The position numbers were made by a program, and so were the translations under genes. DNA of 32,871 bases from Oscillospiraceae bacterium (lineage in GTDB: Bacteria; Bacillota; Clostridia; Oscillospirales; Oscillospiraceae). The stretch is from NCBI GenBank assembly GCA_009783555.1, contig WRDH01000033.1, positions 1-32,871 of the forward strand. The letters run 5' to 3'. Below the pieces are notes generated by a model. The model made no database searches and was not told where the DNA came from. It saw only the letters and a program-made list of their open reading frames with translations. Below are positions 1,294 to 32,178 of this stretch, one piece after another (within the stretch, counting starts at the first letter, position 1; every line of letters begins with the position of its first letter).

Positions 1294-1302
1294 TGCTATA
1301 TT
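1294..1302 (+). promoter_or_regulatory. Extended -10 promoter of the WYL-TIR operon
   Basis: TGCTATATT forms an extended -10 (TGn plus TATATT at 1297-1302). The predicted start site near 1309 falls inside the palindrome at 1306-1324. An alternative -35 TTGATA at 1279-1284 exists but is badly spaced for this -10. Confidence 0.45.
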
Positions 1303-1305
1303 TAA

Positions 1306-1324
1306 ATGCAAATATAATTTGCAT
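1306..1324 (+). promoter_or_regulatory. Perfect palindromic operator before the WYL regulator
   Basis: ATGCAAAT, three-base centre ATA, ATTTGCAT: an 8-bp perfect inverted repeat, located between the -10 box and the ribosome binding site (AGAGGAG, 1327-1333). Its position over the transcription start fits an autorepressor site. Binding by the adjacent WYL protein is inference. Confidence 0.6.
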
Positions 1325-1342
1325 AAAGAGGAGATGGCAAAT

Positions 1343-2392
1343 ATGCATACAAAAAAGCAGTTTTTGGTCAATATTCTTAACATTCTAAAAAAGTATTCGG
1401 ACGCCGATCACCGTCTTTCCCAGTCGGAAATCGCAAAGTGGATGGAGCGTGATTATAACATTGTAATCGGACGTAAAGCAGTTAAGAGCAACCTTATGGA
1501 GTTGATTAGTTTAGGTTATGATATTGAATATACTGAAATAGAGCGTAAAAGCAAGGATGGTGAAGATGGGATAGTCTATACCGATTGGTATTATAACCAT
1601 GAGTTTACTGAAGCGGAGCTTCGCTTTTTAATCGACTACTTATTATTTACAAAACTGATACCTTACAGCCAGCGCATGGAACTGATCGATAAGCTGACAG
1701 ATTTATCAAGCATTCATTTCAGAGAGAAGATGCGTAAAATCAAAGCTTTACCCGAAGACAGGGTTAAGGACGGGGGATTCTTTTTTAACCTTGAGTTATT
1801 GGATGAGGCAATATCAAATGAAAAGAAAGTCAGCTTCAAGGTACTAACCTTAAATACAAAAAACAATCCTCAGCCTCCGGCATTTGATGAGAAAAAAACT
1901 GTCAGCCCGTATGAGCTTGTAGCAAAAGGCGGAAAACACTACCTTTTTTTCAGTGAGGAACCAAAAAGACTACTTGGATACTGTCCCATAGAAAGCATAA
2001 CAGATCTTCATATACTGGACGAACCTGCTTTGCCGAAAAAAGACGTCGAATGGCTAAAGTACAGCCATGATCCTATATTAGGCATGATACGTTTTGCGGG
2101 AGAAGGTGAAGCAGTAACTTTTCGCACCGACTGGAGTACCTATCAGAAATTTAGCGCAAATCTTCTTTATCTCGATAAAGACAAGGTTGTCATTAAAAGA
2201 AAAGATGATGAAATAACCATTACGGCATCTGTTAAAGAGGATTTAATGCTCAGTTGGGCAATGTGTTACGGCTTGGAAATCATTTCTCCCGAGAGTTTGA
2301 AAGAAAAAGTGCGGGATGAAATGAAAGCAATGTGGAGCAAGTATGCGATATCCGGTGATAAGAGCATGCAATGTGAGGAGGATACAGTATAA
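1343..2392 (+). CDS. WYL-domain transcriptional regulator
   Basis: 349 residues from ATG 1343 (AGAGGAG nine bases upstream; the nearer ATG at 1334 touches the ribosome site and is less likely). Residues 1-65 look like a winged helix-turn-helix (LSQSEIAKWMERDYNIVIGRKAVKSNLMELISLGYDI). A linker of helices follows, then a WYL-type ligand-sensing region around residues 165-235 (KKVSFKVL, SPYELVAKGGKHYLFFSE, RLLGYCPIESITDL) and a C-terminal WCX-like extension. WYL regulators of this layout (BrxR, CapW) repress phage-defence operons and are thought to respond to nucleic acid or nucleotide ligands. The stop codon overlaps the next start by one base (TAATG), so it is translationally coupled to the TIR-LRR gene. 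It is probably a self-regulated repressor of the pair, acting at the 1306-1324 palindrome. Confidence 0.88.
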   Translation: MHTKKQFLVNILNILKKYSDADHRLSQSEIAKWMERDYNIVIGRKAVKSNLMELISLGYDIEYTEIERKSKDGEDGIVYTDWYYNHEFTEAELRFLIDYLLFTKLIPYSQRMELIDKLTDLSSIHFREKMRKIKALPEDRVKDGGFFFNLELLDEAISNEKKVSFKVLTLNTKNNPQPPAFDEKKTVSPYELVAKGGKHYLFFSEEPKRLLGYCPIESITDLHILDEPALPKKDVEWLKYSHDPILGMIRFAGEGEAVTFRTDWSTYQKFSANLLYLDKDKVVIKRKDDEITITASVKEDLMLSWAMCYGLEIISPESLKEKVRDEMKAMWSKYAISGDKSMQCEEDTV

Positions 2393-5300
2393 TGTTACCA
2401 AAAGACGCATCAATATTTGCAAGTTACCACAAGTCAGATGAAAAGCATGTACTGCCTATATTAGAGCAGGTTAAGGCAGCGGGATGGGATTGCATTACAA
2501 CCCGGGCTGTGCAAGCCGACAGGGTTGCTGAGAGACAGGCAATTGAACAAAGCGCAATGGCATTGATATTTCTAAGTACCTCATATGTCCGTGACGACTG
2601 CCTGATGTTAGAGGAGTTTTCGTATATCGCATCTGTCGCCCGAACACCTTTTTTGCCGGATTGGATAGACAAACCCGGAAAGATGGCATACGAAAGCGGC
2701 AGCTATGACAAGCAGCTTCTCAGTGCACTTGAAATGCTCACCGCAAATAATCCGGGAATAGACGAAGGTGCGAAAAATGCCGAAGGAGTAATTAACGCAC
2801 TTGGACAATATACACCGAATGCCGCAAGCTACACACCGTCTACGCCGCAAATCTATGAAAAACCGTGCGAGGCTTACGGTGGCAACGAGCCATACCTTTT
2901 TATCAGTTATGCACATGACGATGCGAACCGGGTTTACCCGATATTAAAAGAGTTGTATGAAGCCGGCTGGGATTTATGGTATGACGAGGGAATTAAAACG
3001 ACCGAACGTTATCTGCCTGTCATTGCCGACAGTCTCAGGCGTTGTGCAGCATTTGTGTTAATGCTGACCAACCGTTGTCTGGAGCGTCCGTTTATCATGG
3101 AGTACGAGCTTACATACGCCCGGCAACGCGGTATCCCTATAATACCGGTATTGCTGGAAGAATTGAATCAACCAAGCTGGCTGTGGATAGAAGTGAACTC
3201 GCTAATGAAAACAGCTATTGCACCGCAGGAGTTGTTAAAACATGTACAAGATTTAGAACTGTTGCAAAATCGCGGTGAACGTGTCGCCGTTCCCCCCGCT
3301 GTTCTTCAGAATGTAGTTTACGATGTCGTCCTGCCACCCGGGCTGCCCGGGTTTGACTTTTCAGCGCAGGGCGATACGCTGACCATCACTAAATATACGG
3401 GCAGCGATTCGGATGTGATTATTCCAAGCGAGGTTTGGTCACCTGACGGGTGTACTATGTTCCGGGTAACGAGTATAGGGCAACGTGCCTTTTGGGGATG
3501 CAATTCACTTGTTAGCATCACAATTCCGGATAGTATAACGCGTATTGACAGTGAAGCTTTTTCTTATTGCAAATCACTAATAAATATTAGTATCCCAAGC
3601 AGCATTTCCGGTATTAGCTCCGGATTATTTTCAGAGTGTATATCTTTAATAAGCATCACAATTCCGGACAGCATCATAAGCATTGGCAGCAGTTCTTTTT
3701 CCGGTTGTACATCGTTAACAGACATCACGATTCCGGACAGCGTAATAAGTATCGGGGAATGCGCTTTTGAAAGGTGTGAGTCCTTATTAAGTATTACAGT
3801 CCCAAACAGCGTTAGAAATATTGGCAGATATGCTTTCTCATATTGTAAGGCATTAACAAGTATAATCTTACCTGACAGTATTACAGAAGTTGATGCCGGA
3901 ATTTTCCGCGGATGCGAATCCTTAGCTAATATCGCTATCTCTGATTCTATAATACGAAGTGCTGTGAAAGCCTTTTTAAACTGCGATACCCTGGCGAATG
4001 TCATCCGATATGATAGTTGCATCAGCATTGCTGACTTTGATGCCGCAAGTGAAAAGATGGAACACGCAAGTCAAAACGGCAACATTGATGAGTATGTAAA
4101 CGATGTTAACGAAACCTCTCTAGCAGGATTTTCCGAACTGATATGTACTGATACTCCACGTGCACTGGTATGTTGTGCTGAGGACGATGCCAAAAACGTC
4201 AGTTCATTGCTGGCAGAGCTTTACTGGGAGGGCTTTAACATTTATTATGAGAATATTCTCAATCCGCAAACGATTAATAAGTATCAGTGTGTTCTTGCGT
4301 TTCTCTCTGCTGAAACAGCAAAATCCAAACAGGCTATGAGTATACTGGAAAATGCACTAATATGTGAAAATATGCCGGTTATTCAAGTATTTCTGGGTGA
4401 CAGCAACCACAACTGCTTGCCTAATGAGCTTCGGCTTAAAATGCAAAATCAACAAGCTATATTCCAAAATCCGGATAACACTACAGAGCGGGAGTTTAGC
4501 GGCAAAATTCGCAGCAGCCTGCGGGATTTTGATTGTGTCTTGGGCAATACAAGAGGATTTGCAGTTGAAAATAGAGACAACGGTGTCGAAATAGTAAAGT
4601 TTGTTCCGACAGATTTTCCGCATGTTGTTATCCCGAAAACTTTCTTTAACCCTCCAATACCGGTTACGAGCATCGGTGATATGGCTTTTTCGGGATGCGA
4701 ATCGATTGTGGGAGTTACGATTCCGGAGAGTGTAGAAAACATAGGACGGGAAGCTTTTTCTGATTGCAAGTCGTTGGTTGATATAGTAATTCCAAACAAT
4801 GTAACAGAAATAAGCGGTAGCACTTTTAAGGGATGTAAATCACTCGAAAAAATTGTTATTCCGGATAGCATCACAGCGATTAACAGTAACGCTTTTTCCG
4901 GTTGTGAATCACTAACAAGAATTGTTATTCCGAATAGCGTTAAAGAGATTGGCAGTAACGCTTTTTCCGGTTGTGAATCACTGGCAAGTATCACTATTCC
5001 TGACGGATTAACAAAGATACCGAATTTTGCTTTTGAAGATTGTAAATCATTGACAAAACTAGCCATTCCTGAGAGTGTAACACATATTGGACGAGGTGCT
5101 TTTTATAATTGCAAATCGATGGCTTGCATTAATATTCCAAATAGTGTATTCCAAATTTACAATAGTGCTTTTTCAGGTTGCGAATCGCTGACCGGCATCA
5201 TCATTCCTGATGGAATAACGGAGATACTTTATAGTACTTTTTCAGAGTGCAAATCACTAACAAGTTTTATCATCCCTGATAGCGTTACGATAATTGGTGA

Positions 5301-5817
5301 TGAAGCTTTTCGAGGGTGTGAGTCATTAACAAATATTACTTTCCCGGATAGCCTTGTGGAAATTGGTAATAGAGCTTTTCGTGAATGTAAATCACTGACC
5401 GGCATTAGTATACCGGACAGCGTCACAAGTATAGGCGACGGTGCCTTTAGTAGATGCATATTGCTTACCGATATCATCTTTCCTGACGGAATAACAGAGA
5501 TTCCTGGAAGTATCTTTTCCGAGTGCAAATCACTAGCAAGTGTTCTCATCCCGGATAGCATTACGAAAATTGGTGATAGAGCTTTTCGTGAATGTGAGTC
5601 ATTAACAGAATTGCATTTATCAAATAAGATAACCATCATTGATGATATGGCTCTTTCCATGTGCAAATCATTAACCAACATCACCATCCCGGGTAGCGTA
5701 ATAAAGATTGGCCGGGGTGCTTTTCCCGAATGCGAATCACTGACTATCCACACTCCGGCAGACAGTGTGGCGTGGCGATATGCAATAGAAAACGATATTA
5801 AACGTAAACCGCTATGA
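2392..5817 (+). CDS. Three-TIR, two-LRR-block protein (TIR-TIR-LRR-TIR-LRR)
   Basis: 1141 residues, ATG 2392 with GAGGAGG ten bases upstream, overlapping the WYL stop. Domains: TIR-like 1 at about 6-115 (IFASYHKSDEKHVLPIL, then LEEFSYIA); canonical TIR 2 at about 167-290 (YLFISYAHDDANRVYPIL, WDLWYDEGI, EYELTYARQRGIPIIPV); BspA-type leucine-rich repeats (LRR_5) at about 320-545; degenerate TIR 3 at about 588-712 (RALVCCAEDDAKNVSSLL, ILENALI); second LRR_5 block at about 718-1130. Glutamates at the place of the TIR NADase catalytic residue are visible in all three (E74/E75, E239, E653), read by eye. There is no signal peptide, so it is cytoplasmic, unlike secreted BspA proteins. The LRR units are 23 residues (69 nt) with ITIPDSVTxIGxxAFxxCxSL consensus. 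A role as LRR sensor with TIR NADase effector in defence is inferred from architecture and the WYL partner. A dispersed repeat begins at the base after the stop. Confidence 0.88.
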   Translation: MLPKDASIFASYHKSDEKHVLPILEQVKAAGWDCITTRAVQADRVAERQAIEQSAMALIFLSTSYVRDDCLMLEEFSYIASVARTPFLPDWIDKPGKMAYESGSYDKQLLSALEMLTANNPGIDEGAKNAEGVINALGQYTPNAASYTPSTPQIYEKPCEAYGGNEPYLFISYAHDDANRVYPILKELYEAGWDLWYDEGIKTTERYLPVIADSLRRCAAFVLMLTNRCLERPFIMEYELTYARQRGIPIIPVLLEELNQPSWLWIEVNSLMKTAIAPQELLKHVQDLELLQNRGERVAVPPAVLQNVVYDVVLPPGLPGFDFSAQGDTLTITKYTGSDSDVIIPSEVWSPDGCTMFRVTSIGQRAFWGCNSLVSITIPDSITRIDSEAFSYCKSLINISIPSSISGISSGLFSECISLISITIPDSIISIGSSSFSGCTSLTDITIPDSVISIGECAFERCESLLSITVPNSVRNIGRYAFSYCKALTSIILPDSITEVDAGIFRGCESLANIAISDSIIRSAVKAFLNCDTLANVIRYDSCISIADFDAASEKMEHASQNGNIDEYVNDVNETSLAGFSELICTDTPRALVCCAEDDAKNVSSLLAELYWEGFNIYYENILNPQTINKYQCVLAFLSAETAKSKQAMSILENALICENMPVIQVFLGDSNHNCLPNELRLKMQNQQAIFQNPDNTTEREFSGKIRSSLRDFDCVLGNTRGFAVENRDNGVEIVKFVPTDFPHVVIPKTFFNPPIPVTSIGDMAFSGCESIVGVTIPESVENIGREAFSDCKSLVDIVIPNNVTEISGSTFKGCKSLEKIVIPDSITAINSNAFSGCESLTRIVIPNSVKEIGSNAFSGCESLASITIPDGLTKIPNFAFEDCKSLTKLAIPESVTHIGRGAFYNCKSMACINIPNSVFQIYNSAFSGCESLTGIIIPDGITEILYSTFSECKSLTSFIIPDSVTIIGDEAFRGCESLTNITFPDSLVEIGNRAFRECKSLTGISIPDSVTSIGDGAFSRCILLTDIIFPDGITEIPGSIFSECKSLASVLIPDSITKIGDRAFRECESLTELHLSNKITIIDDMALSMCKSLTNITIPGSVIKIGRGAFPECESLTIHTPADSVAWRYAIENDIKRKPL
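4678..5745 (+). repeat. Tandem 69-nt units encoding 23-residue LRRs
   Basis: The second LRR block has about fifteen 69-nt units. Some are nearly identical at the DNA level: the 30 bases 4884-4913 recur exactly at 4953-4982, 69 bases later. This suggests recent unit duplication and a potential for copy-number change. Confidence 0.75.
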
Positions 5818-5880
5818 AGACAGATGAACCGTCCCCCTGGTCCTGCCGGATGAACCGTCCCCCTGTCCTGCCCCTGTCCT
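5818..5880 (+). repeat. REP-like repeat cluster A (two copies, forward)
   Basis: Two copies of the GATGAACCGTCCCC core with CTGTCCT tails. The first base of the repeat follows directly after the TIR-LRR stop codon (5815-5817). Confidence 0.85.
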
Positions 5881-5912: not shown

Positions 5913-7154
5913 ATGAAAAAAGCATTTGTAGCCCTGTTTGTTATTTTCTTAGCACTATTTTTATTCGGCTGTGCAGCAGATGAACCATCACCTGAGCCGA
6001 CCCCGACGCCCGGGCCTGTCATTGAAGCAACGCCGGAGCCGACGCCCATGCCCGAAGCTACGCCGACACCGACACCGGAACCGGAGCCAACACCTGAACC
6101 TGAGCCGGAATTTTATTGCTGGATTCAAAATGATGAGGGGTTTTATATGTTTGCCGAGGGTCAGCAATGGTGGGAGGCATGGTGTTTCTTTAATTGCTGC
6201 GGAGTGCCAAGCTGGGATCTTTTGCATCCGGATTTAAGATCTGACTTTATTCAAATTTACGGTTTAACATTTACAGAATATCTTCAATCGAGATTTGGTG
6301 CTCCCGAAATAATGATTGCTGAAGAAGCTTCAGTTATTGAAAATGATTATTTTACTGTCAACATTCAAGAAGGGTTATTGTACCTTAACTGGATTTTTCC
6401 GGTTTTAGAGGAGATAATAATACCTTTCATACATGAAAAAACGGGATTATATCTGCCGGACAGCGGTGAAAGGTTTCAATTGGTGCTTAGAAACCTTGAC
6501 CCTTGGGATGCTGAATATGGCACATTCAGTGCATTTGTTGAGCGTAATGAATCCGGAAATATTGTGATGGGTATGACTATAAGACCAAATGATTTCGATG
6601 GATGGGAAAATCCGTTAGACCACTGGGGTGGATCATCTTTAATATTTTTCCCTTTCCTTGCAATGTCGCATGAGTTTGCACATGTTTTATCATATGCATT
6701 TACAATGGAGAATAGACCTCGTCCATCTAATTCGAAACTCCATGAGGAAGGCCATGCCGCCCTTATTGATGCGATTACAGTGAATGAGTTTTTTGGTATT
6801 GGTGCCCGGAGCTCTTTGACGAATATGTCGAATGAAGATAGGTTTGACATGATTAGCGACATTGCCCGCAATAATCTTGCATACGCCCTTAGCAGTCATA
6901 CGCTTCTAGGCAGTTTAAATAATCCGATTCAGAACGGATTGTTGTTTGGAGTACTTTTTTATTATTACCTCTATGAAATGCACGGTAATCAGTATGTTGT
7001 TGAAATACTCACAGCGATGAACAGACAAACGCCGAATGAGGCAGATGTATTGTCTATTATTGATGACATTCTCGGTGGCGATATATCCGTAACATTCCCG
7101 GAGTGGATAGATGATAATAAGGATTTGGTTGTTCCGTTGGCAATTGCTAGTTAA
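5913..7154 (+). CDS. Lipoprotein with zinc-metallopeptidase-like domain
   Basis: 413 residues. Lipoprotein signal peptide with hydrophobic core and lipobox ending at Cys20 (LFLFGC). Residues 24-66 are a Pro-Glu-Thr-rich PEPTPTP linker that would span the wall. The C-terminal domain (67-413) has HEFAH at 253-257 and, 22 residues later, HEEGHA (277-282), which resembles the gluzincin arrangement of HExxH plus an EGxA segment giving the third zinc ligand (Glu279). A surface-anchored metallopeptidase is therefore likely; substrate unknown and the family is not recognised. AGGA lies about ten bases before the ATG. Monocistronic; a family-2 inverted repeat follows immediately after the stop. Not in the same unit as the TIR-LRR gene as far as can be seen, although no clear promoter of its own is visible. 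Confidence 0.7.
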   Translation: MKKAFVALFVIFLALFLFGCAADEPSPEPTPTPGPVIEATPEPTPMPEATPTPTPEPEPTPEPEPEFYCWIQNDEGFYMFAEGQQWWEAWCFFNCCGVPSWDLLHPDLRSDFIQIYGLTFTEYLQSRFGAPEIMIAEEASVIENDYFTVNIQEGLLYLNWIFPVLEEIIIPFIHEKTGLYLPDSGERFQLVLRNLDPWDAEYGTFSAFVERNESGNIVMGMTIRPNDFDGWENPLDHWGGSSLIFFPFLAMSHEFAHVLSYAFTMENRPRPSNSKLHEEGHAALIDAITVNEFFGIGARSSLTNMSNEDRFDMISDIARNNLAYALSSHTLLGSLNNPIQNGLLFGVLFYYYLYEMHGNQYVVEILTAMNRQTPNEADVLSIIDDILGGDISVTFPEWIDDNKDLVVPLAIAS

Positions 7155-8063: not shown

Positions 8064-8091
8064 ACTAATGTAGAAGCTGATGAGGTGCTGT

Positions 8092-9516
8092 ATGGAAATC
8101 ATTGGAAGAAAATACGAACGTGGTATTCTTACAAGATGTGAACAGTCTGACAAGCCTGAGTTTGTTGCAGTGTATGGTCGAAGACGGGTTGGAAAAACCT
8201 TCCTTATTACTGAACATTTTCAAAATAAATTTGCGTTTACAGTAACAGGGATATCAGGCGGAAAAAGAACAAATCAACTCGGTGAGTTTCGCAGAGCTCT
8301 GATGAAGTCTTACAAGGGGGAAATTCCCGTACTGAAGAGCTGGTTTGAAGCGTTCGCTGTTCTTGAAGAAAAAATCGAAGGCGACACAACATTAGGAAAA
8401 AAGATTATTTTTATTGATGAACTGCCTTGGTTTGACACTCATAAGTCCGGGTTCGTTCCTGCGCTTGAACATTTCTGGAACTCTTATGCTGCCCGGAATC
8501 CGGACATATTTTTGATTGTTTGCGGCAGCGCAGCGTCGTGGATGATAAGCAACATTATTGATAACTATGGTGGTCTCTATAACAGGATAACAGAGACGAT
8601 GGTCATTAAGCCGTTCAATCTCGGTACATACGAGAAATATTTGACTAATAAAGGCATTTCATTTAACAGGCAACAGCTCGCGGAGGCGTATATGATTCTT
8701 GGCGGGATACCTTATTATGCGGATCTAATGGACAGGTCGTATGGGCTCAATCAAAACATTGACCTATTGTTCTTTGCCGAAAACGCTAAATTAGGCAATG
8801 AATATCAGCGGCTATATAACTCGTTGTTTCGCAATGCAGATAATCACATGAGAGTTGTAGAAGCACTGGCAAAAAGAACAGTTGGATTAACGCGAAGAGA
8901 AATCTCAGAAACCACCGGGATTTCAGATGGCGGCGGTCTTACAAAGGTTCTTACAGAACTGGAATCGAGCGGCTTTATATCCCGGCATATAGATATTTTT
9001 CATAAAAAAGACGGCGATTATTTTATGCTGATAGACTTTTTCACGCTGTTTTACTATAGATATTTGCGAAACCGAAAAAACACTGATCGCAGATTCTGGA
9101 CAAACTATCTGGCAGAGCCGGGGCATAGGGCATGGTGCGGATATGCTTTTGAATTGCTGTGTATGATGCATATAGATCAAATCAAACAGCGCCTGGGTAT
9201 ATCGGGCGTCATATCAGAAGTCTACACTTTTCGCAGTAAGTTAAAAAAAGGCGGTGCGCAAATCGATATTGTGATAGACCGCCGAGATAGCACAATAAAC
9301 TTATGTGAATGCAAATTCTCAAGTGATGTTTATACGATTACAAGTAAGGATGCTACAAGCCTGGAAAACAAAAGGGATGTATTTCTACAAGAAACTAAAA
9401 CCAAAAAAGCCATTCACATGACCATGATCGCAGCAAATGGTTTAACTCATAATGCTTACTGCAACGATATCCAAGCTGTGATCACCTTAGACGATTTGTT
9501 CTTACCTAACATTTAG
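8092..9516 (+). CDS. ATPase_2-type ATPase with DUF234 nuclease-like C-terminus
   Basis: 474 residues from ATG 8092 (GAGGTG four bases upstream; an in-frame ATG at 8080 has no ribosome site). Walker A GRRRVGKT at 29-36, Walker B KIIFIDELPW at 104-113, a sensor-like IVCGSAASWM, then a winged-helix region (LTRREISETTGIS). The C-terminal domain has D392 and ECK at 406-408 (QIDIVIDRR, NLCECKFS), matching the PD-(D/E)XK pattern of DUF234. This is the archaeal-type ATPase family (PF01637 plus PF03008), STAND-like proteins common in mobile or defence neighbourhoods but with poorly known function. Monocistronic, with its promoter between two palindromes. Confidence 0.88.
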   Translation: MEIIGRKYERGILTRCEQSDKPEFVAVYGRRRVGKTFLITEHFQNKFAFTVTGISGGKRTNQLGEFRRALMKSYKGEIPVLKSWFEAFAVLEEKIEGDTTLGKKIIFIDELPWFDTHKSGFVPALEHFWNSYAARNPDIFLIVCGSAASWMISNIIDNYGGLYNRITETMVIKPFNLGTYEKYLTNKGISFNRQQLAEAYMILGGIPYYADLMDRSYGLNQNIDLLFFAENAKLGNEYQRLYNSLFRNADNHMRVVEALAKRTVGLTRREISETTGISDGGGLTKVLTELESSGFISRHIDIFHKKDGDYFMLIDFFTLFYYRYLRNRKNTDRRFWTNYLAEPGHRAWCGYAFELLCMMHIDQIKQRLGISGVISEVYTFRSKLKKGGAQIDIVIDRRDSTINLCECKFSSDVYTITSKDATSLENKRDVFLQETKTKKAIHMTMIAANGLTHNAYCNDIQAVITLDDLFLPNI

Positions 9517-9555
9517 GAAAAAATAGGCAATTGCTGCAATCTATGTTCCGCATAT

Positions 9556-9588
9556 TGGGACAAATAGGGACGGTACGATTTTGTCCCA
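9556..9588. repeat. Family-2 palindromic repeat
   Basis: TGGGACAAA at 9556-9564 pairs with TTTGTCCCA at 9580-9588; the interior carries GGGACGGTACGATT. It is the third copy of the family and lies 40 bases after the ATPase stop. Confidence 0.7.
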
Positions 9589-9738
9589 TTTATTCCATAG
9601 ATGTAAAAATTTCTTGATATAGTTCACAATATCTGTAATGATTATTGAAAGAAGCAGTGATTATTGTGTTGCAAAATCAAACGTCTATTAAGCTAAAAGC
9701 TGCTACCTTGGAGAAAATTGAAACGGGGTTTTCATTCG

Positions 9739-10494
9739 ATGATAAAGATGTTGGTATTTGACCTTGATGATACTCTACTACGCAGTGATAAAACTGTTTC
9801 GGAATATACGGTATCCGTGCTAAAAAAATGCCGGAGCCTTGGGATAAAAGTTATTTATGCTACCGGAAGAGGATGTACGTTGGATATTGTGCCGCAGGAA
9901 GTGTTCGATGGTTATGTGCGAAATGGAGGTGCAGCGGCATTTGCCGGAAATGTACAGGTTTATGAAAAATTAATATCAACTGAAAAAGCAAGAGATTTAT
10001 TGATTGCTTGCGATAATGCCGGGATAAAAATCGCTGCGCAAGATGAAAACAGACATTACTCAAACTTCAATGTTGACGAGATATGGAGTTGGATTAAATA
10101 TTACACTATTGTTGATTTTAATGCATTGGATATTAACGCAGAGAAAATGTACGCACTACCTGAAACGCAGCAGGACGTGGATATAATAAAAAGTAATCTT
10201 CCTGATTGGATTAACCTGATAATAGCACGTGATGAACTGGCAATGTTTATGCACCGTGAAGCAAATAAGTCAAGTGCTGTGAGTGCCTTAGCCGAGTATT
10301 GGGGAATAGAAAACTTTGAAATTATGGCATTCGGCGATGATTTGAATGATATTGATTTACTTGAATTTTGCGGCATCGGTGTTGCGATGGGAAGCGCACT
10401 CGATGAAGTAAAAGCGGTTGCCGATTATATCTGCGACACGAACGAAAATGACGGAGCCGCAAAGTGGGTCGAAGAACATGTATTAAGGATGTGA
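9739..10494 (+). CDS. HAD-superfamily hydrolase (Cof-type phosphatase)
   Basis: 251 residues. Motif I FDLDDTLL with nucleophile Asp8 and Asp10; motif II as YATGRG; motif IV GDDLNDIDLLE followed by GVAMGSALDEVKAVADYI, typical of the Cof/YbiV subclass that dephosphorylates sugar phosphates, flavin or pyridoxal phosphate. ATG at 9739 gives the usual short N-terminus MIKMLVFDLDDT; a TTG at 9718 with GGAG upstream is possible and would add seven residues. Its stop is 11 bases before the start of the peptidase-E-like gene, so the two form an operon. No convincing promoter pair was seen upstream (9600-9700). Confidence 0.9.
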   Translation: MIKMLVFDLDDTLLRSDKTVSEYTVSVLKKCRSLGIKVIYATGRGCTLDIVPQEVFDGYVRNGGAAAFAGNVQVYEKLISTEKARDLLIACDNAGIKIAAQDENRHYSNFNVDEIWSWIKYYTIVDFNALDINAEKMYALPETQQDVDIIKSNLPDWINLIIARDELAMFMHREANKSSAVSALAEYWGIENFEIMAFGDDLNDIDLLEFCGIGVAMGSALDEVKAVADYICDTNENDGAAKWVEEHVLRM

Positions 10495-10505
10495 ATGTAT
10501 AAATT

Positions 10506-11123
10506 ATGAAAAAACTATTCTTAGCATCATCTTTTGACGGTGTGGCAAGCTTACTTCCGGGTTTTATCGGAGAAGATTTATCAGGAAAAAAAGTTGCATT
10601 TATTCCTACGGCAGGAAAACTTGAAGAAAACACATTTTATGTCGATGCAGACAGGAAGGCACTGGAAGAGCTGGGGCTTATTGTTGAGGATTTAGATGTT
10701 TCGAGTGTTCTTTGTGATGAAGCAAAAGATAGAATCAATAATTCAGATTATCTTTTTGTTTGCGGAGGGAATACATTTTTCTTGTTACAGGAACTTAAAC
10801 GAAGGGGTATTGATAAACTTGTTATTGAGCATATCAACAAAGGAAAGCCTTATATAAGTACGTCTGCCGGTTCACTTATCATGCAGAAAAAGATAATAAA
10901 TGATAACGCCGACAGAGTTGAGGATGCTCCTGATTTGAAAGGCGATTTCTCCGCACTTTCTATTATTGATTTCTACATTTATGTACACTACGGTCACAAC
11001 TATTATGGAAATGACGATGAATGTATAGATAAATACTATAGTAATCTTGAGTTAATTAAGATTAATGACAAACAAGTTGTCACAGTCACGGGCGAAAAAG
11101 TTGAGGTTCTTTCTGTCGGATAA
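10506..11123 (+). CDS. Peptidase E-like protein (peptidase S51, type 1 GATase fold)
   Basis: 205 residues. FIPTAG near the N-terminus, CGGNTFFLLQELKRRG and the nucleophile elbow ISTSAGSLIM with Ser120 are characteristic of peptidase S51; Salmonella PepE, an Asp-X dipeptidase, uses Ser120 as well. Histidines at 162 and 165 (YVHYGHNYYG) could supply the base. Cytoplasmic. The 11-base gap after the HAD phosphatase implies co-transcription, although no functional link is evident. Bacillota homologues are usually annotated as type 1 glutamine amidotransferase-like; substrate unproven. Confidence 0.88.
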   Translation: MKKLFLASSFDGVASLLPGFIGEDLSGKKVAFIPTAGKLEENTFYVDADRKALEELGLIVEDLDVSSVLCDEAKDRINNSDYLFVCGGNTFFLLQELKRRGIDKLVIEHINKGKPYISTSAGSLIMQKKIINDNADRVEDAPDLKGDFSALSIIDFYIYVHYGHNYYGNDDECIDKYYSNLELIKINDKQVVTVTGEKVEVLSVG

Positions 11124-11131
11124 TCACCCGC

Positions 11132-11170
11132 CAGCCGTGGCTGACACCCTCTTTTCAAAGAGGGCTAATC
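11132..11170. repeat. Double hairpin at the end of the HAD-PepE operon
   Basis: CAGCC-GT-GGCTG (11132-11143) followed by CCCTCTTT-TC-AAAGAGGG (11147-11164), both perfect. There is no T-tract, so it is an imperfect terminator candidate. A related GTCAGC/GCTGAC hairpin recurs at 27585-27599, also next to the REP-like repeats. Confidence 0.55.
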
Positions 11171-11224
11171 AGGACGGGGGGACGGTTCATCTGACAGGAC
11201 AGGGGGGACGGTTCATCTGTCTTT
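11171..11224 (-). repeat. REP-like repeat cluster B (two copies, reverse)
   Basis: Two copies of GGGGACGGTTCATC. The cluster ends one base before the stop codon of the acetamidase gene. Confidence 0.85.
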
Positions 11225-12118
11225 TTATTTAAGATACTTTTTTGGCATTTTACAAATATATGTGCGAGTGGGGTTGACAAACTGGGTAGCCCTTGCTTCC
11301 ATGAGCAATCCCATCAGCAGGTATCCTTCTTTATCGGAAAAACCGAAGCATTCAGTCATCCACTCCAACATACCCGCGGCTGCTTCATAAAATGATTCTT
11401 CCGTTGAACGTTGGCAGGCTACTGTCATGATGTAGTTATCATCTTCGATGCGGACACAAGAAAGAGTTTTTTGTCCTTTTAGTATTTCTACTTTTAGTCT
11501 TACTGTTGCCCGGCATTCAATGCCTCCGGAACAGTTGATTTCTCCGTCACCCTGGATGGCATGACAATCACCAACATGCAATAGCGCACCCGGTACAGCG
11601 ACCGGAAGGTAAACTATGCTGCCCGCCCGTACTTCCTGAACATCCATATTACCGCCGTGAAGCCCGCCTTTTGCATTACTTAAGGTTTCGCTTTTTGGTG
11701 CTGTGCCTAACGTACCAACCATAGGAATCACCGGTATTTTTCTTTGCTCATCCCAATGAATAAACCCGTCGCGGATTTCTACAGTCCTTTCATTGAGTCC
11801 CCAATCAATATTCTTTATTAAGCAAGCCAACGGGTTTGTGTGATTAGTAAAGCCTGTGTATCCAAGGGCATCAGGCTCAACAGCCAGGATATGCACCTTA
11901 AGAATATCTCCCGGCTCAGCCGAGTCAACAGATACCACTACCGAGGGGTTGCACCCGTACATTTTATCCTGTGTCCAGCGATCCGTCGGAGCAAGAAGCC
12001 ATTCACCGGAACACAACTCTGTGTGCACCTCAAAAACCTCTCCGGCGGCAACAGTTATTTGTGGTTTGCTTAGAGGACCATGTGTATTGGTTAACATCTT
12101 TCGCATGGCAACTTTCAT
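11225..12118 (-). CDS. Acetamidase/formamidase family protein
   Basis: 297 residues, close to the usual length of the bacterial family (PF03069). Conserved landmarks: PAEPGDIL-type segment (DSAEPGDILKVHIL), PVIPMVGTLGTAPK, the GGLHGGNMDVQEVRAGSIVYLPV block, GALLHVGDCHAIQGDGEINCSGGIE, and the C-terminal Glu-rich MGLLMEARATQFVNP. The family hydrolyses short amides to carboxylate and ammonia in the cytoplasm. AAGGA is about nine bases before the ATG. It is monocistronic, bounded by repeat clusters at both ends, and convergent with the PepE operon. Nothing nearby suggests the substrate. Confidence 0.93.
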   Translation of the reverse strand: MKVAMRKMLTNTHGPLSKPQITVAAGEVFEVHTELCSGEWLLAPTDRWTQDKMYGCNPSVVVSVDSAEPGDILKVHILAVEPDALGYTGFTNHTNPLACLIKNIDWGLNERTVEIRDGFIHWDEQRKIPVIPMVGTLGTAPKSETLSNAKGGLHGGNMDVQEVRAGSIVYLPVAVPGALLHVGDCHAIQGDGEINCSGGIECRATVRLKVEILKGQKTLSCVRIEDDNYIMTVACQRSTEESFYEAAAGMLEWMTECFGFSDKEGYLLMGLLMEARATQFVNPTRTYICKMPKKYLK

Positions 12119-12135
12119 TTTCTCAATCCTTTCTC

Positions 12136-12320
12136 AGGACAGGGGGACGATCCCCTTGTCTTATTTGACTCATCAAACAGCGCCAAATACCTGCAATGCC
12201 TACAAGACAGATGAACCGTCCCCCTGTCTTATTTGACTCAACAAACAGCGCCAAATACCTGCAATGCCTACAAGACAGATGAACCGTCCCCCTGTATTCA
12301 TGAACCGTCCCCCTGTATTC
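12136..12320 (+). repeat. REP-like repeat cluster C with a 68-bp tandem duplication
   Basis: One degenerate copy (GACGATCCCCTTGTC) and three forward copies. The segment 12158-12225 is repeated as 12226-12293 with one clear mismatch; each unit holds unrelated sequence (TTTGACTCA...CAATGCC) plus one repeat core. The last copy overlaps the stop codon (12319-12321) of the minus-strand regulator. Confidence 0.85.
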
Positions 12321-12954
12321 ATTCCATTAAATCTTCAACGTCACATCCCAAAGCCCGGGCGATTTTTATTGCAACAAGCACCTGTGCTTTGTTTATATCT
12401 CTTTCTCTTTGTTCGTACATTTCAATTGTACGTAAGGGTACACCTGCCTCGGCAGCGAGCTTTTCCCGGGATAGTCCGGCTGTTTTTCGAATATGATTAA
12501 GGTTTGTTTGAGGGCGCGAGTTTATATAGATATCATCTGCCATTTCATAGAATTTATTTATGTCCTCTTCATGCAGGGAGTAATACATATCAAGGATGTC
12601 TGAAAACGGCATGAATCGCAGTATTGAGGAGAATTTCCTGCCGGTGTACCACTGGTAGTGTGCCAAAGCCCAGCCGCCCCAGTATTCGGAGGTTTGGTTG
12701 TCTGTTATCGAGGGTACAGCCTTCGGAGCGTTGCCGGTTGCTTTTGTAATTGCTTCGATTGCTAAATCGATACCACTCATCTGTGCTACAATTTTTGGAT
12801 TACCGTGTTCGAATTGTTGTGCCAGTCCGGAAGAAATAAACATATGTAAAAACCTGCCGCCGTCGAGGCCGCAGTCGTTTACTGCATACCGCATCATGCT
12901 GCCGAAGTTTCTCGCGGCTTTGGATAAGTATGTTTTTCTGTAAGCGCGAGCCAT
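12319..12954 (-). CDS. HTH (XRE/Cro-type) regulator with N-terminal helical domain
   Basis: 211 residues from ATG 12954 (AAAAGGAG ten bases upstream). The longer frame would overlap the ATPase gene and is rejected. A Cro/C1-type helix-turn-helix is at the C-terminus, about 152-211 (LNHIRKTAGLSREKLAAEAGVPLRTIEMYEQRERDINKAQ). Residues 1-140 are a separate helical domain containing SEYWGGWALAHYQWYTG, seen in other Clostridia regulators, function unknown. It is the second gene of an operon with the AAA ATPase (16-base gap). It probably binds the decamer array at 14111-14170 and controls its own operon, and perhaps the divergent sacsin-like gene. Confidence 0.85.
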   Translation of the reverse strand: MARAYRKTYLSKAARNFGSMMRYAVNDCGLDGGRFLHMFISSGLAQQFEHGNPKIVAQMSGIDLAIEAITKATGNAPKAVPSITDNQTSEYWGGWALAHYQWYTGRKFSSILRFMPFSDILDMYYSLHEEDINKFYEMADDIYINSRPQTNLNHIRKTAGLSREKLAAEAGVPLRTIEMYEQRERDINKAQVLVAIKIARALGCDVEDLME

Positions 12955-12970
12955 GTCGTTCCATCTCCTT

Positions 12971-14071
12971 TTAAAGTCTGCTTTGAATATACTCGCGAAA
13001 CATTGGTAAGTCAAAAGTGACTTTACCGTGACCATAACTGCTTATTACTCCGTGTTCTATCAAACGCTTACGATACATACCTGCATATTTCGGGGTAACC
13101 TTCATACGTTTTGATATATCGGAGATAACGCTGTATTCGTTATCAAACAGCATTGCTTCAAGAAAGGCAATGTCTTTTTCAGACAGCTCTTTATAGGTAA
13201 CATCAAAAATCATTCGGTTAAGGTCGTTTTGCGCAAGGATGATTCCTTCTTCAGCATCATCAATAGAAATGTTCTTTTTATCAGAATTCTGTCGCCACAT
13301 TTGGTAACCGATTAACTGGATCATAAAAGGAAATCCTTTTGTACTTTTTACAGCTAAAGCAAGGGCATCACTGTCAATTGACCTTCCGGCAAGTTCAATT
13401 GTTTTCTTCATTGAAAAACGAACTTCGCTTTCCTCAACAGCCTCAAGGTGGTATTGAAAGGCTCTCCTGAGAAACGATATTGAATCGTTGCGAAATAAAT
13501 CGGACACTTTAGACGGCAATCCCGCCATTATAAGTGCTACATCTCTTCGTTCCCGTACGAAGTGTTGAAAGGTTGTGATAACTGTTTTTAATTCGTCAAT
13601 CCTGACATCCAGCTCATCCACAGTAATCAATAGTCCGGCATCCTTTTCATTCAGTTCCTTAATTATCGATGTCATCTCAGAGCGCCAGGTAGTTTTCCTA
13701 TTACTTTGTTTTTCATTTCGAGAGACACCAACACCGGCAAAGCTGATTGATGATATATGCAATAATGACTCGGGAGCAAGAAACTCTTTTGCATTGTCTC
13801 TAATTTGAATCAATAATTCCTCAAGCATATTTGAATCCGCATTTACATTAACGCTTATCCAGCCATTAGCTGATGCTTCTTCAGCAACTTTTGCTAACAA
13901 AACTGTCTTTCCCGATCCTCTAGCGCCAATAAATATTGTTGACCTGTGAGGGTCTCCGGGACCGTTATCAAGACCTTCTAAAGTATCTTGAATTATTTTC
14001 TCCCTTCCTGCCAATTGGAGTGGAATGCTTCCAAACGATGGTGTGAAGGGATTTCTTATTCGCTCTTTCAT
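12971..14071 (-). CDS. AAA ATPase, Orc1/Cdc6-like (ATP-binding protein)
   Basis: 366 residues. N-terminal NPFTPSFGSIPLQLAGRE motif, Walker A GARGSGKT at 49-56, Walker B LLITVDELDV near 147-156, an arginine-rich sensor region (FLRRAFQYHLEAV), and a C-terminal winged helix (FLEAMLFDNEYSVISDISKRMKVTPKYAGMYRKRLIEHGVI). This matches bacterial ATPases of the archaeal-ATPase/Cdc6 class that accompany HTH regulators in accessory regions. GGAAAG precedes the ATG. First gene of the operon with the XRE regulator, from the promoter at 14178-14206. The role is unknown; it might be a switch partner of the regulator or an effector of the neighbouring sacsin-like protein. Confidence 0.85.
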   Translation of the reverse strand: MKERIRNPFTPSFGSIPLQLAGREKIIQDTLEGLDNGPGDPHRSTIFIGARGSGKTVLLAKVAEEASANGWISVNVNADSNMLEELLIQIRDNAKEFLAPESLLHISSISFAGVGVSRNEKQSNRKTTWRSEMTSIIKELNEKDAGLLITVDELDVRIDELKTVITTFQHFVRERRDVALIMAGLPSKVSDLFRNDSISFLRRAFQYHLEAVEESEVRFSMKKTIELAGRSIDSDALALAVKSTKGFPFMIQLIGYQMWRQNSDKKNISIDDAEEGIILAQNDLNRMIFDVTYKELSEKDIAFLEAMLFDNEYSVISDISKRMKVTPKYAGMYRKRLIEHGVISSYGHGKVTFDLPMFREYIQSRL

Positions 14072-14110
14072 TGCATTTCTTTCCTCAGTCTTTGGTTAAA
14101 CACTTACACA

Positions 14111-14170
14111 GCCTTTAGTTTCCTTTAGAATGTTTTAGTTTTCTTTAGAATGTTTTAGTATCCTTTAGTT
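14111..14170 (-). promoter_or_regulatory. Six helically phased decamers (operator array)
   Basis: Six consecutive 10-base units, each with CTTTAG or TTTTAG at the same register (cores at 14113, 14123, 14133, 14143, 14153 and 14163, plus strand). Units 2-3 and 4-5 form a 20-bp direct repeat with two mismatches. The array covers the region just downstream of the -10 box of the minus-strand operon, so a bound protein would block transcription. Confidence 0.7.
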
Positions 14171-14177
14171 TTACATG

Positions 14178-14206
14178 ATTATAGCATGCTAATCCGAAGA
14201 AAGCAA
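14178..14206 (-). promoter_or_regulatory. Promoter of the AAA ATPase-HTH operon
   Basis: Minus strand: TTGCTT (14206-14201), 17-base spacer, TATAAT (14183-14178). The transcript begins near 14171, at the edge of the decamer array. Confidence 0.7.
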
Positions 14207-14220
14207 CCGTTTAATATTTA

Positions 14221-14255
14221 AGGACAGATGAACCGTCCCTGTGTCCCGTGTCCCG
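14221..14255 (+). repeat. REP-like repeat D (one copy, forward)
   Basis: GGACAGATGAACCGTCCCTG followed by a GTGTCCC pair, lying between the two divergent promoters. Confidence 0.8.
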
Positions 14256-14258
14256 CTC

Positions 14259-14287
14259 TTGTGTAATTCATTGTTTTGCGGTATAGT
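14259..14287 (+). promoter_or_regulatory. Promoter of the sacsin-like gene
   Basis: TTGTGT at 14259-14264, 17-base spacer, TATAGT at 14282-14287, about 33 bases before the ATG. Confidence 0.55.
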
Positions 14288-14319
14288 TCTTTTATGCTTT
14301 TTATTGAAAAGAGGTTTAA

Positions 14320-17300
14320 ATGAACAAGAGTCAACTGTTTATCAAGCGGTTAAATGATGATTATATCAGCAAGCATACGCAAAAGCATGTTTTTGATGAT
14401 CTTATTGTTGAGTATAATACTGTAAAGAAGGACATTAAGGGTTATCACGGGCGTGAGATTTTGGAACTGCTGCAAAATGCGGACGATGCATATGAAAACA
14501 GTGTGCGGGAAGGCAGGAAACCGGACAACGACCTTGAGGTTAATATCGAGTTTATTGAGAATGTCCTTACCGTGGAAAACACAGGGACATTTTTCAGTGA
14601 AGACGGAATTAAGGCTATTGTTCAGGGGAATAACAGCGACAAAGCGGGTTCGGGGTATATTGGCAATAAAGGGACAGGCTTTAGATCGATATTAAACTGG
14701 GCTGAGCAGATATTTATACATTCGGGAGAGTTTAATATAGAATTTTCAAAAGAAATTGCAAAAAAAGCGTTCAAAGGAATTGAAAATCACCCTCAAATAC
14801 AAAAACAAATAAAGCAGCAAAAAGAGAAAGGAAAGAAGCTCTATATACCGATGCTGGCATATCCTCAGTATATTGAAAACTCAAAATGGTCTGAAACGAC
14901 TGTAATAAAAGTCGTGGTTAATCAAAAAAAGCAAAGCGATGGATATGGGGTTTCGAAGCAGATCAATGATATTGATTTGAAAATCCTGCTGTTTTTACCG
15001 AATATCAGGAAAATATCCATTCATACCGATGTTGATGATATTATTTATGAAAAGCTTCAAACGGGGTACAAAAAACCAGAGAAGGTATTTCTCAGTAAAA
15101 TTACAGATGGTGATATGGAAAAAGAGGAGTCATATTATTATTTCTCCAAGATTTTACCAAAAGCAATCAAAGAAGATGAGGATGATGAAGACAAAAAGGA
15201 TGTTCGTTTAGCTGTTGCAATACCGTTGGATTACAGCAGATTTGAAAATTGCAGGCTGTATTCGTTTTTTCCCTTATTGGAAACGGAGTCGCCGTTTAAC
15301 TGCGTTCTGAATGCCACGTATGTTTTAGGAGATCAAAGAAACAATTTAAGTCCGACAGAGGTGAATACATTTATCATCCGTGAACAACTGCGTTTTTTGA
15401 TAGAAACGGCAAAAGATATGGCGGAAATAGAGGCCAATGATGTACCTCTGCGATTGCTGACACCGGTTAACTTCGAGTATGACCGGAAAGGGATAAGTCA
15501 CTACCCCAAAAGAGGTGAATGGAAATTTCTGTCAGCATTCTCGATTTCAAAACTCGAAAATGAATATTTGGATATGCTTAAAAAAAAAGATGTAAGGGTG
15601 TTTCTGACCGTAAACAACGAGTATATCTCTATTTGCGATAAACCAAAAATCTTAAATAAAGGCTGTCCGGAATTCTTTAAAGGGAAAGAGTTTAGCAATT
15701 TGCTGAAGCCGCTTAATGGAAAAGAACTTGATTTATTATATTGTTTGTCTGAGAGAACTGGCAATGCGGTTGAATATAATGAGCATGAATTATTGGCTAT
15801 TGTTAATAATCTCACAGAGACATGGACAAAAGAGCAGCGGGTGGAGGTGTTTACCTGGTGGAATGAGAATTTTGAAAACACTCTGCCAAGCCTGCTGAAA
15901 ACACAAGCCGGAGATTGGCTTGTATTCGGGAATGAGTACAGCTTCCTGACCGAAACGGTCGATGATGAAGGACTTCCGAATTGGGTGAAGGTTCCGACAC
16001 TGGAAAGCAGTTATCAAAAGCTTCTGTTTGAAATTGCCGGGCAAAATGCAGATGTTATAAAAATAAAAGAAACAGAGAAATCACAAGAAGACGGCAGATC
16101 AAGCCCGATTGACCGTATAATATCTCAAAATAACATATACCCTCTGGTTGACTTTAAATACAGAGATAAATCAACTATAGTCACAGCCGTTAACAGCTCC
16201 GTGGATAATTATGAGAAATCGGTCGAATTTGTTAAGTGGTTATGGAAGTATTACAGCAGTGATGAAAAATGGGAACCGATTGATAAGGTTATATACAAAT
16301 TCCCGAATGATACGGAACCGGAGGGTTATCAAGACAGCAGGAGAATGTTCTTCGGCTCTGAGTATGGATACGGATTATCAGAGAAGCTATTTGCTTTTCC
16401 GTATTGCAAATTCCCCGGATGCGATGTATTTATAGATAATCCCGACCCCGATACTATCTTGCGCTTTCAATGTTTTGTTGAACTCTTTGGAGTAAGAAAA
16501 TTCCCGCCCGTCGAGCTGACAGAGAATGTTAAACCAATCAGACAATATAGTGAAGAGTATGAAAGAAGCATTGCATCTCTGGAGAATGTTGAGTCATCAG
16601 ACGGGTATGATATTTCTTACACCCTAAAAACCATTGATAAAATCACAGAAATACTGCAAGCATTAACTACGGAAAGTATTATTAAGTGGATTTCTTCGGA
16701 TAGTAATTTAAAGGCGTGGCTAAAAAACTCTCCATATGAGGATAATGCGATAATAACCTATAAAAGAAAGAAAAGAGGTTCGACAACAAAAACTTACTAC
16801 GAAAAGAAAAAGAACTATTTATTGTGTGTGTTCAATAACAGAAAATGGGTTAATCTCAACGGCAAGAGGTATAGACCGGCAGAGGTGCTCAAGAGTATAG
16901 ATTCCGACAGAAATCAGCTTTTCTCTCCGCTTGTCCCTGTCTTGGGTACAGAAATTATCGAAAGCTGGGCGATAAACACAAAGATTGATTATGAGGAAAT
17001 CGTCAGTATTATCGAGCTGTTTGATTTTTGTGAAAAAGTCACGAATCTGTCGTCGGATGATTTTTATGGTTTGCTGCTGAAGCTCCCCGACCCCGAATAT
17101 GACTTCCAAAAAAGCCAAAAAATCTCTAAGGCAATTTACAGGATTATTGAGCAGCCGGGCTTTAGCCGGATATATGAGGATTCAAAAAATAAAAAGCAAT
17201 ACTTTACCGATGGTAAGATTTTGGTGAGATATAAAGGTGAGCTTAAATATTGGTTCGCTCGTGAAGCATATTTGCCCAGCACCAGAATCGTAGTGAAAAA

Positions 17301-18996: not shown

Positions 18997-19078
18997 ACCG
19001 TCCCTGTGTCCTGAGGACGGATGAACCGTCCCCGTGTCTTGCGCGAAATCAGGACGGATGAACCGTCCCCGTGTCCCG
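18977..19078 (+). repeat. REP-like repeat cluster E (three copies, forward)
   Basis: Three copies fill the whole 82-base gap between convergent genes. A 28-base block, including the last bases of the sacsin-like CDS, occurs at 18977-19004 and again at 19042-19069, showing local duplication. The repeat supplies that gene's TGA and ends one base before the stop of the next gene. Confidence 0.85.
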
Positions 19079-19966
19079 CTATTTTAGGTTTTTGATAAGG
19101 GTATTTAAGTCATCTGTGATATCAAGAGACTCGGGGTGGTTAAAGAGTTTATCGTTTGTTGATAATTTCCACCCGCGCTCGTGCTTATTTTCGTCTGCTA
19201 TTTTTTCTGCATAATCTACACCAATACAAATTGCTTTCAATACAGTCGCCCCATCCACAGAAAACACGACAACTACCAGATAATCAAATTCCCAGGATCG
19301 GAAAACACCAAGAGACGAAGATTTCAACTTCTTTAGTCTTCTTGATTTAACTTGGATTAACTTTTCTTTGTCTCCGTCATTTTTGTCATTAAATACAATA
19401 TCAGCAGACTTGTGACTTGCCGTCAACTGTTTCCCGTCATAGTACATAGCAACAAGTCTTTCTGAAATCTCAGCTACAATGTTCGCTGTACTTCCCATTG
19501 CTTTTTTCAACCCGTCATGGACTATATTATATTGCCTCCACAACTCGAAGACAGTTGCATCCAAACCATTATTTATCATGTGTTTCTTATTAGATTTTGT
19601 CTTTGAATGCTTCTTACTCACAATAACGCCGGTTGATGCAGCACCCGGCACTATTCCTTTCTGCTCTAACCATACCGTCAGCTTTTCTCTTGATGATTCG
19701 AACCATTGTGAGCATAAAAAATATTTATTACCGCTAATATTAACCGGATTTTTGTAATATCTGTATTGATGCCTACCGTCCTTGAGTTTAGTGAAGGTGC
19801 GGTCTTTTGATAAAAGAGGAAAATTAATCCCGAACATTTGCTTTGAATGAGCGGGGTCCTGCAGGATTGATATTTCTTCTTTGCTAACTTCCCTGTTCTC
19901 AAGAGCCTCTTTCAGGTATACCTGAACGATTGCACCTATTTTTTCACTATATATGGTTGTATCCAA
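19079..19966 (-). CDS. Restriction-endonuclease-like protein (PD-QXK, DUF6998-like)
   Basis: 295 residues from a TTG at 19966 preceded by GGTGGGG seven bases upstream; no ATG fits. Residues 35-100 hold a small conserved module (SKQMFGINFPLL, YRYYKNPVNISGNKYFLCSQWFE) seen in many bacterial proteins of unknown function. Residues 155-260 look like an endonuclease fold: Glu166 or Glu169, SADIVF with Asp189, and IQVKSRR with Gln205-x-Lys207, the D-QxK variant of PD-(D/E)XK. A DNA-cutting role is inferred. It is convergent with the sacsin-like gene and 87 bases downstream of the Sia-like operon on the same strand, so it could be read from either its own promoter or that operon. Confidence 0.75.
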   Translation of the reverse strand: MDTTIYSEKIGAIVQVYLKEALENREVSKEEISILQDPAHSKQMFGINFPLLSKDRTFTKLKDGRHQYRYYKNPVNISGNKYFLCSQWFESSREKLTVWLEQKGIVPGAASTGVIVSKKHSKTKSNKKHMINNGLDATVFELWRQYNIVHDGLKKAMGSTANIVAEISERLVAMYYDGKQLTASHKSADIVFNDKNDGDKEKLIQVKSRRLKKLKSSSLGVFRSWEFDYLVVVVFSVDGATVLKAICIGVDYAEKIADENKHERGWKLSTNDKLFNHPESLDITDDLNTLIKNLK

Positions 19967-31987: not shown

Positions 31988-32178
31988 AGACAGGGGGACG
32001 GTTCATCTGTCTTGACTTGAAAAGCTCCTGCCAAGACAGATGAACCGTCCCCCTGTCTGCCCTGTCTGAAAGCTCCTGCCAAGACAGATGAACCGTCCCC
32101 CTGTCTGCCCCTGTCTGAAAGCTCCTGCCAAGACAGATGAACCGTCCCCCTGTCTGCCCCTGTCTGGTCTCCCTGTCC
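31988..32178. repeat. REP-like repeat cluster N with a 27-bp perfect hairpin and three 48-49-bp tandem units
   Basis: One reverse copy (from 31988) faces a forward copy (from 32032): the arms 31988-32014 and 32032-32058 are perfectly complementary over 27 bp with a 17-base loop. Two more forward copies follow in units of 48 and 49 bases that also contain AAAGCTCCTGCC. The cluster starts 17 bases after the ParB-like stop. Confidence 0.9.

Follow-up and report, generated by a model that had tools for sequence, protein, structure and literature searches.

TIR-based immunity is known in bacteria, and the TIR NADases Thoeris ThsB, AbTIR, SPARTA TIR-APAZ and SpbK share a TIR fold and a catalytic-type glutamate. 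In plant TIR-NB-LRR proteins and animal Toll-like receptors, TIR and leucine-rich repeats (LRRs) lie on one chain, while in CapW and BrxR operons a WYL-type gene stands first, with a palindrome near the promoter. A locus on contig C33 of an Oscillospiraceae bacterium (assembly GCA_009783555.1, 79 contigs, 2.75 Mb) has similar features, its palindrome being a candidate operator. The entire contig, 32.9 kb (32,871 nucleotides), was analysed and is referred to as the window. It encodes a WYL-type regulator followed by a protein with the domain order TIR1-TIR2-LRR-TIR3-LRR. This TIR-LRR build may represent a new variant of TIR-based immunity: a cytosolic single-chain receptor in which the LRRs would sense, TIR2 would act as the NADase in phage defence, and the WYL protein would exert local control. 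The chances of this reading are put at about even. Its enzymatic half is argued from homology, its immune role from family knowledge and context, and WYL control solely from gene coupling; NADase activity, a ligand, phage defence and WYL repression are inferred. The features concerned are the following (+, forward strand).

1306..1324: inverted repeat ATGCAAAT-ATA-ATTTGCAT, candidate operator, perfect 8-bp arms, 3-base spacer, 19 bp
1343..2392, +: WYL-type transcription regulator gene, 349 amino acids (aa) from ATG 1343
2376..2381, +: AGGAGG, lying within the WYL gene and probably serving the TIR-LRR gene as Shine-Dalgarno (from the sequence)
2392..5817, +: TIR1-TIR2-LRR-TIR3-LRR protein gene, 1141 aa, Pfam TIR_2 3.4e-21 and LRR_5 2.9e-184
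2392..2676, +: TIR1, residues ~1-95, E75 aligned with E239, hhalign to TIR2 E 7.1e-7, probability 92
2884..3177, +: TIR2, residues ~165-262, conserved Glu E239, supported by Pfam, weak AbTIR sequence matches and a model fold match
3508..3990, +: LRR block 1, residues 373-533, 7 repeats of 23 aa (fixed-pattern count)
4144..4536, +: TIR3-like, degenerate, residues ~585-715, with a shortened BB-loop/helix-B stretch and lacking the conserved Glu
4705..5739, +: LRR block 2, residues 772-1116, 15 repeats (fixed-pattern count)

Beyond the TIR fold and glutamate that its TIR2 shares with the TIR NADases, the protein has two BspA-type LRR blocks and two more TIR-like domains. It differs from the plant and animal receptors in having neither an NB/STAND NTPase nor a membrane segment, and in that its BspA-type LRRs are split by a TIR-like domain; no NACHT, NB-ARC or STAND NTPase is found in it by Pfam (E 0.1), unlike in NLR and Avs receptors. 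ThsA, pAgo and an APAZ partner were not found among the genes examined (the seven window proteins of the PADLOC scan; Pfam). No description of a bacterial protein joining BspA-type LRRs to TIR was found in the literature on TIR, LRR, WYL and RyR, a search that left most subscription papers outside its scope.

The TIR-LRR protein and its relatives

The coordinates, open reading frame (ORF) sizes and TAATG coupling given in the original prediction are correct. It also proposed two BspA-type LRR blocks, which are borne out by the LRR_5 match and the 7 + 15 repeats, and three TIR-like domains. The latter are unequal, and on present sequence evidence TIR2 is the constrained one. Pfam recognises TIR_2 in two stretches of the protein. 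TIR2 is 73-78% identical to its counterparts in two homologues, its predicted model has a TIR fold by fold match (VIA-align rows covering residues 161-299), and E239 aligns with the AbTIR glutamate, a residue present in 12/12 selected aligned TIRs. For TIR1 the Pfam TIR match (0.0083 over residues 21-81) lies under the cut-off. TIR3, which lacks the glutamate, is weakly supported (TIR_2 E 0.16 on the segment alone; hhalign to TIR2 E 3.3e-4, probability 38). The LRR blocks change faster than the far better conserved TIR2 and vary in copy number among homologues; AF2 block means for block 1 are 56-93, and DNA repeats of 69 bp with 82-88% matches lie at 4851-5000 in block 2. The predicted cytoplasmic location agrees with hydropathy alone: no stretch could serve as signal peptide or membrane segment, as no 19-residue stretch is at or above 1.6 (maximum 1.44).

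In the proposed mechanism, the LRR blocks would either recognise a ligand that signals danger, such as a phage product, or use it as a scaffold. TIR2 domains would thereby be brought together, with TIR1 and the degenerate TIR3 as assisting assembly surfaces, and the clustered TIR2 (E239) would consume NAD+, causing its depletion or generating an ADP-ribose signal. Either outcome would stop the infected cell. The upstream WYL protein, recruited to the locus, would bind at or near 1306-1324 and keep expression low. If this is true, bacteria have the LRR-TIR combination known from immune receptors of plants and animals in a single chain that lacks an NTPase switch, and its LRRs provide a handle on the sensed ligand.

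The architecture is kept across phyla, and its distribution is patchy. By Pfam it is also present at two homologue loci, L009 and L010; L011 and L012 match the LRR part alone. A TIR1-2 query matches 13/198 genomes (relatives, own included), 12 of them in the TIR2 part alone at 26-34% identity, and none of 18 other genomes of the same genus. In wider sets it matches 4/247 (centre genome G199 included), 9/398 (own included) and 10/296 genomes; the full query is matched in the window's own genome and in G199, the genome of L009, alone, and the other wider-set matches are partial. These scans of genome contigs use short peptide patterns, so that absence elsewhere does not follow from them.

TIR_2 and LRR families are both found by Pfam in each of L099, L100, L101, L102 and L115, which differ from the present protein in having one TIR apiece. 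In L102:6966-8528 (genome G119; the same as L044), whose TIR is 33% identical, and in L115:1-1137 (an IMG/VR contig), a hydrophobic segment lies between TIR and LRRs, giving a TIR-TM-LRR order. A DUF4062 match near the TIR-LRR gene of L099 falls under the cut-off (E 0.0014). Separately, an 808-aa protein at L104:7742-10168 (G150) has TIR_2 at residues 166-267, an N-terminus that is TIR-like by eye and then Sel1/TPR repeats, with no LRR.

Sideways gain of the locus is the simplest reading. The closest genes around the TIR-LRR gene are those for a LytTR response regulator and the WYL protein and a lipoprotein-like ORF (Pfam). In two genomes of the same genus, G013 and G010, the genes most similar to the upstream LytTR gene (59% and 45%) adjoin other genes, and the 14-15 kb examined there contain no ORF like WYL or TIR-LRR. 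Carriage by phage or plasmid was dropped on near-absence from plasmid, phage and IMG/VR data, in pattern-limited scans. The TIR1-2 query has 0 matches in 72,556 plasmid records and 1 in 50,697 phage records (37%, TIR2 part); relatives were not confirmed in IMG/VR with queries A1, A4, A3 and the WYL protein; and WYDEG-type DNA patterns match 1 and 22 stretches there, one of the 22 being a TIR, that of the L115 TIR-LRR protein.

The WYL-type gene and possible control of the operon

The WYL stop and TIR-LRR start share one base (TAATG at 2390-2394), and this overlap, together with the strong Shine-Dalgarno, makes co-expression of the two genes very likely. Alternative in-frame starts of the regulator ORF are ATG 1334 and TTG 1286. 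That its product is WYL-type, as predicted, is upheld by the PADLOC WYL model (5.6e-15) and less so by Pfam, in which WYL (0.0094) and WCX (0.072) each fall under the curated cut-off. The regulator departs from CapW and BrxR in several ways: the eponymous motif is His-Tyr-Leu (HYL, residues 199-201) and the conserved Trp, kept in CapW (PMC9122588), is absent; Pfam recognises no winged helix-turn-helix and no convincing helix-turn-helix is seen; there is no match among PDB sequences to E 1; and the pairing with the TIR-LRR gene is not conserved. CapW-like WYL regulators act as repressors at the promoter of the operon that encodes them, and CapW operators are palindromic sites of ~20 bp (PMC9122588). 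Local WYL control may therefore follow here even without co-evolution.

The predicted 8-bp palindrome is indeed exact. It sits at 1306-1324, immediately 5' of the Shine-Dalgarno of the WYL gene, with TATAAT at its centre (1313-1318), and it is present as a single exact copy across the genome contigs examined (92% complete). A promoter scan does not list this TATAAT. When the 98 bases upstream are dinucleotide-shuffled 2000 times, an inverted repeat of at least this length arises in 71 cases. There are 12 distinct places in the window with arms of at least 8 and a loop of at most 12.

Several observations weigh against a WYL-controlled immune receptor. The palindrome is near chance level and by itself weak, merely suggestive evidence, and no common palindrome was found upstream of 12 WYL relatives (of 20 loci). 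A WYL gene was not found within ~8 kb either side of the homologues in L009 and L010, so that WYL regulation is not a conserved trait. PADLOC TIR models match the TIR-LRR protein weakly (best 3.4e-4), and the TIR parts of the structural models are of modest to low confidence: block means in the full-length model are 23-51 for TIR1 and TIR2 and mostly 47-62 for TIR3, and a TIR1-TIR2 model has a mean of 55, with block means of 47-88 over residues 161-290. TIR domains need not be immune, nor is the glutamate always tied to activity (PMC7075850). Finally, the locus has no known defence gene as an immediate neighbour, and 1.3 kb upstream of it the contig ends.

A dedicated WYL-TIR-LRR system was dropped, because the pair is not conserved at L009, L010 or other TIR-LRR and WYL loci. 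No WYL gene was found at four further TIR-LRR loci, L099-L102 (phmmer E 1e-3), and a hidden Markov model (HMM) of 12 TIRs detects no TIR at any of the 20 loci of WYL relatives. These neighbourhood scans took non-overlapping ORFs of at least 80 aa, among which genes can be hidden; the WYL gene itself is untagged in 3/20 WYL loci that have longer overlapping ORFs at its place (L063, L071, L078). At L061 the third gene 3' of WYL encodes an apparently secreted LRR-matching protein (3.8e-54 to the window's TIR-LRR protein, P0002) without TIR. The original prediction of a WYL/TIR-LRR module is partly supported. Its WYL partner was not found beside relatives, an outcome that the prediction itself had named as refuting; what is supported is a Glu-bearing TIR fused to LRR and coupled to a WYL-type gene, with PADLOC matches on the contig. 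The lack of conserved pairing counts against a dedicated two-gene system and not against local regulation here.

The regulator has matches in 116/199 genomes of relatives, own included, the nearest other being a paralogue in its own genome (41%). This paralogue, at L059:7067-12397 (G000:C17), lies 5' of a Hen1/Pnkp RNA-repair pair (PF12623 1.9e-100, PF16542 8e-174). Eight neighbour proteins from WYL-homologue loci (20 fetched) comprise, by Pfam, Hen1, Pnkp, an AAA-M41 protease, clostripain and two more AAA proteins, the remaining two having no family, and such diversity makes the regulator look like a general-purpose local type. The WYL gene may be an unrelated mobile regulator that landed upstream, the TIR-LRR gene being read through without specific control. 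The mixed neighbours and the lack of a WYL gene beside L009 or L010 favour this; the one-base overlap with its strong Shine-Dalgarno, and the CapW precedent for repression of an own operon promoter, speak against it, and it is considered somewhat unlikely.

RyR-domain neighbours and a signalling alternative

The chief mechanistic rival to TIR2 as a killer NADase is that TIR2 makes a cyclic ADP-ribose (cADPR)-type messenger for a separate receptor, as in Thoeris. The reader would be an RyR protein of the same operon in some relatives; in the window it would be encoded elsewhere, or the WYL protein would sense the product and derepress its own promoter in a positive feedback. WYL regulators have been proposed as sensors of ADP-ribose (ADPr) moieties (PMC9503650). 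In L100 (G738) and L101 (G820) four bases are shared between the TIR-LRR gene and the gene for a 578-aa RyR protein (PF02026 1.1e-13 and 7.3e-14). In L010 the TIR-LRR gene likewise shares four bases with a TrkA_N gene (PF02254 6.3e-6), whose product is hydrophobic at the N-terminus and ends in an RyR-like part below threshold (Pfam E 0.067; hhalign E 8.1e-5, probability 61). Places where RyR genes lie beside TIR genes are listed below.

L100:6019-9647
L101:6977-10602
L010:7977-14431
L145
L138

According to a 2026 preprint, phage RyR-domain proteins cleave or sequester 2'/3'cADPR, a TIR-made signal, with H75, W78, H100 and D117 contacting the ligand (PMC13232231). As read by spacing, H..W and D are retained in the proteins of L100 and L101, and the place of H100 is taken by T. 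RyR occurs in 7/329 own-phylum genomes and in 24/296 genomes related to G200, which is titled Bacteroidetes. A TIR lies within ~1.5 kb of 7/40 RyR loci (4/10 and 3/30), against 0/29 WYL loci (Fisher p 0.019), a comparison in which the TIR of L141 was part of the HMM, two matches are weak (1.9e-4, 9.6e-4) and same-genome loci are not independent. The partner of a TIR protein (TIR_2 1e-12) in L145 (G570) combines an RyR domain at its C-terminus (6e-8) with a hydrophobic N-terminus.

These findings speak for nucleotide signalling by some relatives of the TIR-LRR type, though the support does not extend directly to the window; TIR/RyR neighbours are possibly bacterial cADPR-RyR immune pairs. At the other 33/40 RyR loci, a TIR is missing within 1.5 kb. 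The window has no adjacent candidate receptor and its genome no RyR match (controls silent; the same query matches 7/329 genomes), and none was noted beside L009, where neighbours were without a Pfam scan. A messenger-making TIR2 is judged unlikely for this locus. Broader still, and doubtful to a greater degree, is the idea that TIR-LRR proteins are cross-phylum, NTPase-free receptors with a fast-evolving LRR sensor of variable copy number and a conserved TIR giving a cADPR-type signal, read by RyR in some relatives and by WYL as positive feedback here. If true, reading of the signal by RyR would parallel, in prokaryotes, the cADPR-ryanodine-receptor pair. Should the RyR link hold, it would offer a testable bacterial setting for asking if cyclic ADP-ribose acts on RyR domains.

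BspA-type LRRs are mostly found in surface proteins, and the LRR part has further matches in the own genome (C58, C60, C16); a non-immune role, either as a protein delivered to, or active on, a eukaryote of the gut or as an internal scaffold, is nevertheless improbable, given the lack of any hydrophobic stretch fit for a signal peptide or membrane segment and the far greater conservation of TIR2 than of the LRRs.

Genomic surroundings

Three PADLOC matches lie 3' of the TIR-LRR gene.

8080-9516: PDC-S27, candidate family, PADLOC 1.8e-189
14320-18996: TmtA, PADLOC 4.4e-260; Pfam NOV_C 6e-10, sacsin domain sub-threshold
19079-19966: mREase_II, PADLOC 6.3e-18

Window positions 8080-19966 are probably a defence region, for which these matches provide modest support. 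They lie 2.3-14 kb from the TIR-LRR gene and are interrupted by ORFs that are housekeeping-like by eye. Directly 3' of the TIR-LRR gene, the lipoprotein-like ORF at 5913-7154, with no informative Pfam family, contains an HExxH motif (HEFAH) and is proline-rich over one stretch.

An interspersed repeat, GATGAACCGTCCCCCTG, begins a few bases 3' of the TIR-LRR stop and has 36 matches (at most 2 mismatches) in window positions 5823-32152, against 0 expected. Example copies are as follows.

5823-5865: GATGAACCGTCCCCCTG copies
18992-19073: GATGAACCGTCCCCCTG copies
28134-28270: GATGAACCGTCCCCCTG copies
32039-32152: GATGAACCGTCCCCCTG copies

The window also encodes an IS200/Y1-type transposase (29741-30502, PF01797 5.6e-13), which suggests that these copies form a REP/RAYT-type array.

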